Source: a virus. Taken from it: a stretch of DNA of 51,630 nt. The notes beneath the pieces are model-generated. The model ran no database searches and was not told where the DNA came from. It saw nothing but the letters and a program-made list of their open reading frames with translations. Within the stretch, counting starts at the first letter, position 1; the number at the start of each line of letters is the position of its first letter. Shown one piece after another: positions 36,106 through 37,624 of this stretch. The translations under genes were made by a program, and so were the position numbers. Location of the stretch: the IMG/VR virus record IMGVR_UViG_3300046512_000015, positions 1-51,630 of that record, one strand, 5' to 3'.

Positions 36106-36397
36106 ATTCCTCTTCCACTTCAATCATTGTCCAGTCAAGACGAAAAGCGTGTCGACCAGGGACTTGTAAATAAGATTCATAATACTTAGTGGTGATTTCA
36201 GCGCCGAGATGGGCTGCACCACATGAGACAGCATAACGATACTTCTTCACCTTGGCTTTCGGCTTGATGCGGTAGGCTCCATCAGCACGCCAATTTGGCG
36301 TGTCTACGTCAAACCAGTCACCGCAATGGTAGTATTGAATCTTTGCCCCATTCGCCCAAGCGATGATGAGGTCAGCATGTTTATGACGAGTGTTCAT
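36104..36397 (-). CDS. Conserved phage hypothetical protein (97 aa)
   Basis: The 97-residue protein has the layout of a small domain widespread in phages: KHADLIIAWANGAKIQYYHC, then WFDVDTPNWRADGAYRIKPK. Here it is followed by a second beta-rich part (KKYRYAVSCGAAHLGAEIT). The family has no agreed function. Its ATG overlaps the upstream stop (ATGA), and its stop codon borders the hairpin at 36083. Confidence 0.7.
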   Translation of the reverse strand: MNTRHKHADLIIAWANGAKIQYYHCGDWFDVDTPNWRADGAYRIKPKAKVKKYRYAVSCGAAHLGAEITTKYYESYLQVPGRHAFRLDWTMIEVEEE

Positions 36398-36807
36398 TCT
36401 TTTGCTCCTTTGGGAGCGTGATAGCCCCAGTTAGGGATGTCTTCCCATTTGCCACGCATTTTATCCATCTCTTCTTCAGGGACATCATGAACAGATTTGA
36501 ATTCACCAGTGGCGTTAATGATTTCAATATCAAAACCCATGTTCATGTATGGTTTGATTTGCCACATGGCGATGAACGTATTAGCAACAACAACATTCTT
36601 CCCGTTGTGTAGCATAATCTCTGCCGTCATTTGGCACCACTCGTGTGCCTGTTTCAGCATGGCCTTGCTGTAATGGTATTTACCATTGAAGATGTGGCAC
36701 ATATCTGCTTCCAGATGAATGTCTGCCTTCCCTTCTTTAACCATATTAGCAGCGAGTGTGCTCTTACCACTGCCCGGCAAGCCACGAATAAGAAAAATCT
36801 TAGCCAT
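36394..36807 (-). CDS. P-loop kinase (polynucleotide kinase / AAA type)
   Basis: The 137-residue protein starts MAKIFLIRGLPGSGKSTLAA, a canonical Walker A (GLPGSGKST). It also has EADMCHIFNGKYHY and GKNVVVANTFIAMWQIKPY, which resemble the substrate-binding and Walker B parts of T4 polynucleotide kinase 5'-domain and Zeta-like kinases. In phages such short kinases repair RNA or tRNA ends or act on nucleotides. The neighbouring tRNA genes make an RNA-end role attractive, but no ligase or phosphatase domain is visible. Confidence 0.8.
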   Translation of the reverse strand: MAKIFLIRGLPGSGKSTLAANMVKEGKADIHLEADMCHIFNGKYHYSKAMLKQAHEWCQMTAEIMLHNGKNVVVANTFIAMWQIKPYMNMGFDIEIINATGEFKSVHDVPEEEMDKMRGKWEDIPNWGYHAPKGAKE

Positions 36808-36937
36808 TAAGCTGCTCCATAATGAACGTTATTACAGTTTGTTTGCAATCAGGATTGACACACGGTACAGAGGCGTAATGCTTCCCGTATGCTTTACGAT
36901 TGCACGATTTGCACCATCCATAATATGTGTAACGCAT
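36800..36937 (-). CDS. Small zinc-ribbon-like protein (45 aa)
   Basis: The frame from ATG 36937 (ribosome site AAGGA) to TAA 36800 encodes 45 residues with paired Cys, WCKSCNRKAYGKHY and CVNPDCKQ, as in a compact zinc ribbon. The end overlaps the kinase start (AATGGCTAA). It lies 13 nt after the CCA end of the tRNA-like RNA. It is likely real and nucleic-acid-binding; the role is unknown. Confidence 0.65.
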   Translation of the reverse strand: MRYTYYGWCKSCNRKAYGKHYASVPCVNPDCKQTVITFIMEQLNG

Positions 36938-36950
36938 GATTGTTCCTTGT

Positions 36951-37158
36951 TGGTAGGACAGACGGGACTCGAACCCGCAGTAAGCTTCCGTAGGTCATTA
37001 CTCCTACGTGTACACAGCCTTCAAACGCGCATCATAGAATGAGCACTGTTAAGAACCCACACACTGCACTTCAAAATATCAGCCTGCACTAATGCTATCG
37101 GTTGTTAGACCTTCACCCATTCCGTTTATGGGCCGCTCGCCTTTTCGCGTTCTGTCCT
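36951..37158 (-). ncRNA. 208-nt tRNA-like RNA with large internal extension
   Basis: The ends form a 7-bp acceptor stem (AGGACAG with CTGTCCT), a normal T arm (GCGGG, TTCGAGT, CCCGT), discriminator A and an encoded CCA. After the 5' arm there is a D-like loop (AAAAGG) and a 5-bp stem-loop CCCAT/ATGGG with loop AAACGGA, whose position 33 is A rather than T. About 120 nt without coding potential follow, including a perfect 6-bp hairpin (CGTAGG/CCTACG), before the T arm. It starts exactly 6 nt after the CCA of the previous element, the same spacing as the tRNA before it, which supports one processed tRNA array. It is not a recognisable tmRNA or group I intron. Confidence 0.6.
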
Positions 37159-37164
37159 GTTGAT

Positions 37165-37239
37165 TGGTGCCTTTGATTAGGACTTGAACCTAATATCTCC
37201 CGGAGCATTTACCGGAGTTTTACTTAAAACTACAAAGGC
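37165..37239 (-). tRNA. tRNA-like gene of uncertain identity
   Basis: The acceptor pairs GCCTTTG with CAAAGGC, discriminator A and CCA are encoded, and the T arm holds GGTTCAAGTCC. The D arm is short (GTTTT/AAAAC, 4-nt loop, no GG). The anticodon arm pairs TCCGG with CCGGG only around an 8-nt loop TAAATGCT, so no normal anticodon can be named. It lies 6 nt after tRNA-Leu. It may be a degenerate tRNA or a decoy/processing element. Confidence 0.6.
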
Positions 37240-37245
37240 ATTGAT

Positions 37246-37330
37246 TGGTGCCCCTAGCCGGAGTCGAACCGGCACGCACAAAGGCGGGGGATTTTAAGTC
37301 CCCTGTGTCTACCAATTCCACCATAGGGGC
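37246..37330 (-). tRNA. tRNA-Leu (TAA)
   Basis: A complete class II tRNA with acceptor GCCCCTA/TAGGGGC, anticodon arm GGGGA-CTTAAAA-TCCCC (anticodon TAA, reading UUA), a long variable arm (CGCCTTTGTGCG), T arm GCCGGTTCGACTCCGGC and encoded CCA. UUA is used often in the AT-rich phage genes. Confidence 0.95.
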
Positions 37331-37336
37331 TGTTTA

Positions 37337-37624
37337 TTAGGCCATTACTCCTTTAGCTTTCAGAGCTTGGTAGGTCTTGAAGCTCAGGTTTGCGGACCAG
37401 CCCTTCTGTTGCTCTGGAGTCAGCTTAGGCTCATGGCTTGCTTGACGGATGATGATAGCTCCCAAGCGGCTGAAGCGTACACCATCGGGGAAATCAGTGT
37501 TGAGGAATGCTTCACGCATTGCGTTGTTCGTGTTGCCCACTTGTGCCTTAGGAGCAGGCTTATGCAGCTTGCTGTTACGACGTTGGCCTTTGGAGGTGTA
37601 TTTTGCGCGTTTAGCTTGTGCCAT
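37337..37624 (-). CDS. Small basic hypothetical protein (95 aa)
   Basis: The 95-residue protein has a Lys/Arg-rich N-terminus (AKRAKYTSKGQRRNSKLHKP) and a C-terminal helical part (WSANLSFKTYQALKAKGVMA). The ribosome site AGGAGAATCA is the same as that of the next gene upstream. It lies just before the tRNA cluster. Nucleic-acid binding is plausible from charge; no family is recognised. Confidence 0.65.
   Translation of the reverse strand: MAQAKRAKYTSKGQRRNSKLHKPAPKAQVGNTNNAMREAFLNTDFPDGVRFSRLGAIIIRQASHEPKLTPEQQKGWSANLSFKTYQALKAKGVMA

Follow-up and report, generated by a model that had tools for sequence, protein, structure and literature searches.

What is the 208-nt RNA whose gene occupies positions 36951..37158 on the minus strand of the window, the 51.6-kb IMG/VR virus record analysed here, and which joins the two ends of a tRNA across a giant interior? 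The acceptor stem is formed by AGGACAG (37152..37158) and CTGTCCT (36955-36961), with 7/7 Watson-Crick pairs, and the 3' strand continues through a discriminator A into CCA, the 3' end as a whole spanning 36951..36961. Between the acceptor strands lie, from the 5' side, a D-like arm CGC-GAAAAGGCGA-GCG with GG within its loop (37134..37149); a 5-bp arm CCCAT-AAACGGA-ATGGG, whose 7-nt loop is at the canonical anticodon position and has A, not U, at position 33 (37116..37132); a central extension of 107 nt (37009..37115) that Rfam assigns to no known family; a 6-bp hairpin CGTAGG-AGUAAUGA-CCTACG with the loop GUAAUGA (36989..37008), also written CGTAGG-AGTAATGA-CCTACG; and a T arm GCGGG-TTCGAGT-CCCGT (36962..36978). 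The original prediction had proposed the acceptor, the D-like, 5-bp and T arms, the 6-bp hairpin and the CCA, and the sequence confirms each of them. It likewise bears out the argument for the 5' end, since the giant RNA and the tRNA-like RNA before it both begin 6 nt past a CCA, and AGGACAG is found nowhere else in the 51.6 kb of the minus strand. The 208-nt RNA is thus confirmed as a real tRNA-like element. Its 6-bp hairpin, as judged from sequence comparison, is the conserved part of the molecule, which the prediction had overlooked.

The giant RNA has the 7-bp acceptor, T arm and 3' CCA of a tRNA; it is not detected by tRNA models. Searches with ARAGORN and Rfam, tmRNA and group I families included, had been proposed for it, and neither tool calls the RNA, Rfam failing to do so both at gathering cut-offs and with E up to 10 on 36800-37400. 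The sole Rfam matches are a 15-nt piece of the tmRNA T arm (11.1 bits against a cut-off of 47) and a chance snoRNA match. A tmRNA was rejected on this score, and the idea of a tmRNA-like tag ahead of tandem stops in the loop was rejected because, by eye, the usual tag ending is absent. No intron family was matched either. The prediction had also offered an intron-bearing tRNA, from which removal of the insert would give a ~75-nt product. Half-tRNA ends do flank an insert, but a group I/II intron fails for want of an Rfam family match and the normal-sized relatives described below carry the same loop uninterrupted, so this reading is unsupported and we regard it as extremely improbable.

The RNA lies directly downstream of two other tRNA-type genes on the minus strand. 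The first is a tRNA-Leu(UAA) called by ARAGORN (37246..37330). The second, between tRNA-Leu and the giant and 6 nt upstream of the latter (37165..37239), is another odd tRNA-like RNA with the arm CCGG-TAAATGCT-CCGG, an 8-nt loop and a D loop without GG; ARAGORN misses it, and it scores 29.9 bits with R1, our general tRNA-type model. On the other side a 45-aa cysteine-containing ORF, with no Pfam family over cut-off, starts 13 nt past the giant RNA (36800..36937, minus), followed by a P-loop kinase-like ORF (36394..36807, minus; AAA_33, E 1e-10). A neighbouring 91-aa protein returned no matches as a search query. The 30 ORFs examined in the window end in TAA (21) or TGA (9), and none in TAG. 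The terminase matches, at ~67-70%, those of phages of podovirus size that infect Pseudomonas (PA11 type), Vibrio and Salinivibrio. The giant RNA is absent from all 12 near relatives, and is therefore dispensable; a DNA search of 40 related-phage records gave short matches at chance level only.

More distant phages do carry counterparts. A blastn search of annotated phages with the window RNA and its neighbour found six Vibrio phages of ~190 kb (pv27, phiTY18, phiKT1024, Va1, TDDLMA and SRILMA), matching over 46 nt that span the hairpin and the T arm, with E 2e-3 at best. As read in pv27 and Va1, the Vibrio giant is 178 nt long, lies immediately past tRNA-Cys without RNA annotation, and has the acceptor, D-like arm, central domain, hairpin, T arm and CCA in the arrangement seen in the window. 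Its D-like arm, CTG-GAAATGGCATA-CAG, has a GAAA.GGC core in common with the D-like loop of the window RNA, and its hairpin is GCTAGG-AGTAATGAC-CCTAGT. In pv27 (L087 1342-1548) a hypothetical protein, WNO23569.1, is annotated antisense across part of tRNA-Cys and the giant RNA; this ORF annotation is probably spurious. A third giant of ~220 nt and the same plan is present in a 207-kb metagenomic phage (L148). The acceptors differ yet are fully paired: AGGACAG/CTGTCCT in the window, GTAGATG/CATCTAC in Vibrio and AGTGACG/CGTCGCT, with one G-U, in L148. Homologues without acceptor pairing had been named as the finding that would count against the RNA, and pairing is kept in all three. Each allows a short hairpin to be drawn where a tRNA usually has its anticodon; the central domain comes next, and after it the GUAAUGA hairpin. 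The central domains have no sequence in common. Only the Vibrio giant folds better than its shuffles (z -2.59, against -0.64 for L148 and -0.59 for the window, where 56 of 200 shuffles are equally stable); the tRNA-like fold, when imposed on the window RNA, lies at most 0.7 kcal/mol from the free optimum. On sequence grounds, these are three independent giants built on one plan.

Extended tRNA-like RNAs of other kinds also turned up. Five with differing bodies (L196, L186, L161, L175 and L206) have a common ~60-nt domain around GGGAGUCAUGACC within the anticodon stem, and their Rfam scores are those of a tRNA with a long insert. An environmental phage (L179, ~728-1657, and L275) has four long tRNA-Leu-like RNAs that ARAGORN does not call.

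The hairpin loop defines a wider class, which we delimit by an 8-9-nt loop with the core GU[A/C]AUGA, closed by a stem of 4 or more bp, a T arm and a pairing acceptor. The window giant has this loop, stem, T arm and acceptor and very probably belongs to the class. The suggestion that it is a new kind of tRNA-like RNA gains support from the Vibrio match, the common plan and the class-defining loop. Some 30 further members among the matches listed are normal-sized (69-78 nt), with an anticodon loop of 8-9 nt. Scanning for GGAGTAATGA with a T arm yielded 22 stretches of viral sequence, and in most of them the loop occupies the anticodon position in a tRNA-like RNA of normal size. A less biased scan, in which GGAG....GACC and the T arm were fixed, found 118; among the 76 distinct sites whose T stem was perfect, the unconstrained core read TCAT at 19 and TAAT at 13, all others occurring at most four times, although loop and T arm are partly imposed by such search patterns. 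Free-stem scans, after filtering, gave at least 62 hairpins (at least 47 GUAAUGA and at least 15 GUCAUGA, with a normal-sized cloverleaf in at least 35 and at least 4, respectively), a list that leaves aside L001, L089 and L262-L317 and includes false positives. In most cases the GUAAUGA loop has 9 nt, the core being preceded by A or C and followed by C or A. Stem and acceptor sequences differ freely among members and remain paired. In the D stem, which played no role in selection, 85.3% of cells are paired and both-side changes occur in 4/4 pairs across 34 normal-sized RNAs, counts that keep two members of the alignment (L343 and L491) judged by eye to be ordinary tRNA-Thr(UGU). Tandem copies put one loop on different bodies (L122, L395 and L099, and three copies in L416). 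In searches of open-licence PMC papers we found no description of the class or of the PTH2 link set out below. The class is easily overlooked, since ARAGORN names many of the small forms tRNA-Ile(AAU) and misses the giants.

Several roles for the loop were considered and set aside. Kissing or antisense pairing to rRNA (GUAAUGA at 1976 of E. coli 23S and UCAUGAC at 1478 of 16S) was judged to reflect chance 7-mers, a palindromic dimer loop fits GUCAUGA only, and RegB, CsrA and initiator-tRNA mimicry were unsupported on inspection by eye.

The class is closely linked to a protein gene. When the ORFs lying up to 4 kb from 49 RNAs were clustered, 13 loci having first been removed by eye, one family emerged, PTH2 (peptidyl-tRNA hydrolase 2-like). 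All three proteins tested exceed the Pfam PTH2 cut-off, and the profile matches archaeal peptidyl-tRNA hydrolase structures (2zv3, E 1.6e-9). Across 366 loci from tRNA-type pattern scans (among the matches listed), a PTH2 gene is present at 33 of 39 loci with a normal-sized GUAAUGA RNA, L491 being counted among the 39, versus 4 of the 327 other loci (p 2e-36 by Fisher's test, loci not thinned for kinship). The linked gene is on the same strand as the RNA in 33/33 cases and at most 959 nt away. Two of the four PTH2 loci scored as RNA-less do hold the RNA, missed under the strict rule; L131 and L150, where the RNA is present and failed that rule, were scored against the association. L095 combines PTH2 with what may be a giant whose T stem is weak; L382 has PTH2 without a class RNA. 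The linkage extends to a cultured phage, Myxococcus phage Mx1, where an unannotated class RNA (about 60,058-60,132) lies ~400 nt on from the PTH2 gene WNM70121.1. The 24 aligned PTH2-like proteins are 22-80% identical to the first. They are without the GKGK lysines of archaeal Pth2, a motif that presumably includes the catalytic lysine, and their hydrolase activity is therefore uncertain.

The window giant has no PTH2-family gene within 1 kb, as the normal-sized form does, and whole-record searches of 40 phage records found none in the window, Vibrio pv27, Va1 or the L148 phage. The strongest link of the class thus fails for the three clear giants, the window's included. The same whole-record searches found PTH2 in only one (G062) of the GUCAUGA phages whose tRNA clusters are considered below; in L416 a GUCAUGA RNA adjoins PTH2 and is accompanied by two GUAAUGA RNAs.

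PTH2-like genes have other noncoding neighbours elsewhere. In the mycobacteriophages Cane17 (L522 3107-3179) and Phabba (L523 2846-2931) the gene adjoins a tRNA, one with a CUA anticodon and one annotated as undetermined, respectively. In Serratia phage BF (L521 ~1607-1840) and Cronobacter phage GAP32 (L524 ~1864-2100) the PTH2-like ORF is preceded by noncoding sequence that matches the GTPase-associated centre of 23S rRNA; the match in GAP32 covers 35 nt at 94% (E 3e-11) and that in BF 34 nt at 88%. BF has a second piece, from the 3' side of that centre, ~185 nt later, and there are 14-15 nt that are antisense to the decoding region of 16S rRNA. To judge by these matches, it looks like an rRNA mimic.

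Does the class RNA decode? It has a U33-like U, its loop can be read as an AAU or CAU anticodon, and ARAGORN gives tRNA-Ile(aat) for many normal-sized members, as would suit an unusual tRNA whose 8-9-nt loop reads AUU, AUG or, as a frameshift suppressor, a longer codon. The tRNA clusters of eleven phages, tabulated with G045 excluded from the counts for its different loop, argue otherwise. Three of the four GUAAUGA phages (G041, G042, G066 and G068) also have tRNA-Ile(GAU), none being found for G066 in the regions examined, and all six GUCAUGA phages (G044, G051, G052, G053, G059 and G062) also have tRNA-Met(CAU). The discriminator base of the GUAAUGA RNAs varies, being A in 16, G in 15, T in 12 and C in 4 among the matches listed. 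Across 30 ORFs of the window AUU occurs 459 times and is aligned to Ile in the 12 relatives in 54% of cases (AUC 57%); AUU still means Ile and is not recoded. A G following U36, as in the class loop, is moreover unusual in tRNAs. Because the RNA is usually extra to an Ile or Met tRNA, the discriminator varies and AUU is still Ile, ordinary decoding by the class RNA is unlikely, and we think the same of the unusual kind.

The explanation that we prefer, while holding it tentatively, is that the window RNA is a non-decoding tRNA-like RNA, a giant member of its class, and serves as bait or adaptor in translation-level counter-defence. It would be transcribed in one operon with tRNA-Leu and the second tRNA-like RNA, and the host's RNase P and 3' tRNA-processing enzymes would free a 208-nt RNA ending in CCA. 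The D-loop and T-loop would build a tRNA elbow from which the central extension sticks out. A partner would recognise the fixed loop, which would be no codon-reading anticodon; this partner may be a factor dealing with anticodon arms or with peptidyl-tRNA. Where the RNA is normal-sized, most phages encode a PTH2-like protein next door, and since the window has no such gene its giant would have to use a host factor. Our first choice would be bait for a tRNA-acting host effector, or an adaptor in the repair of the damage it does. The prediction had also suggested a decoy for tRNA-targeting host defences; the link of the class to a PTH2-family gene keeps a translation-level conflict plausible.

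Other readings fit part of the same evidence. As a translation adaptor, the RNA would be charged and accept the growing peptide when a ribosome has stalled or been targeted, PTH2 or host Pth then releasing the peptidyl-RNA, so that the whole forms a rescue or shut-off device. The PTH2-family gene beside the normal-sized RNA, the intact acceptor and elbow, and the tandem copies with one loop on different bodies (L122, L395 and L416) all suit such a device, but the missing archaeal lysine makes the enzyme's activity doubtful and the giants have no PTH2; we consider it a doubtful alternative. Also doubtful, to about the same degree, is the broader idea that GU[A/C]AUGA RNA and PTH2-like protein form an undescribed two-part phage system with the ribosome or cleaved tRNA as its target, of which the giants (window, Vibrio and L148) would be a protein-free branch with an added RNA domain replacing PTH2. 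That the window RNA is a decaying tRNA gene with an acquired insertion seems rather unlikely: acceptor, D stem, hairpin and T stem are all intact and the same loop recurs across unrelated phages, even if near relatives are without the RNA, its fold is no better than shuffles, the central domains are unrelated and environmental phages contain many further extended tRNA-likes. Another reading is a Y-RNA-like partner of a Ro/TROVE protein. TROVE genes are over cut-off in pv27, Va1 and the L131 phage and below cut-off in Mx1, so that the Vibrio giants share a genome with one, and bacterial Y RNAs mimic tRNA; there is, however, no TROVE gene in the window or the L148 phage, the acceptor and CCA are intact, and no Y RNA family is matched at Rfam cut-offs, which together make this very improbable.

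Phage tRNA genes are usually taken as codon supply or as substitutes for cleaved tRNAs. The recurrent tRNA-shaped RNA described here has a fixed, enlarged anticodon loop, is usually extra to an Ile or Met tRNA and in its small form is coupled to PTH2, which makes a non-decoding role directly testable in Mx1, Vibrio pv27 and Va1. Among known systems, tRNA itself (RF00005) resembles the giant in acceptor, D-like arm, T arm, CCA and clustering with tRNAs, and differs in that the giant has the 107-nt central extension, an extra arm and a fixed 8-nt loop and is called by neither ARAGORN nor Rfam. The tmRNA (RF00023) also has tRNA-like ends flanking a long interior, whereas the giant is without a match at cut-off, a recognisable tag or the G3-U70 pair that is the mark of alanine. 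Bacterial Y RNA/YrlA with Ro (TROVE) shares tRNA mimicry, and some class phages encode TROVE; unlike it, the giant has a closed acceptor and CCA, no TROVE gene in the window and no Rfam match. On PTH2 there is an earlier proposal from authors whom we take to be Iyer and co-workers. It has jumbo-phage PTH2 rescuing ribosomes jammed by cleaved tRNA (PMC7824862) and, in the excerpted text of that paper, mentions no linked tRNA-like RNA, unlike the class. Phage tRNAs that evade anticodon nucleases are taken, in the portion of van den Berg 2023 drawn on here (PMC10264068), as working substitutes for cleaved tRNAs; they too are phage tRNA genes with altered anticodon loops, while in the GU[A/C]AUGA class it is the loop that is fixed and the bodies that vary.
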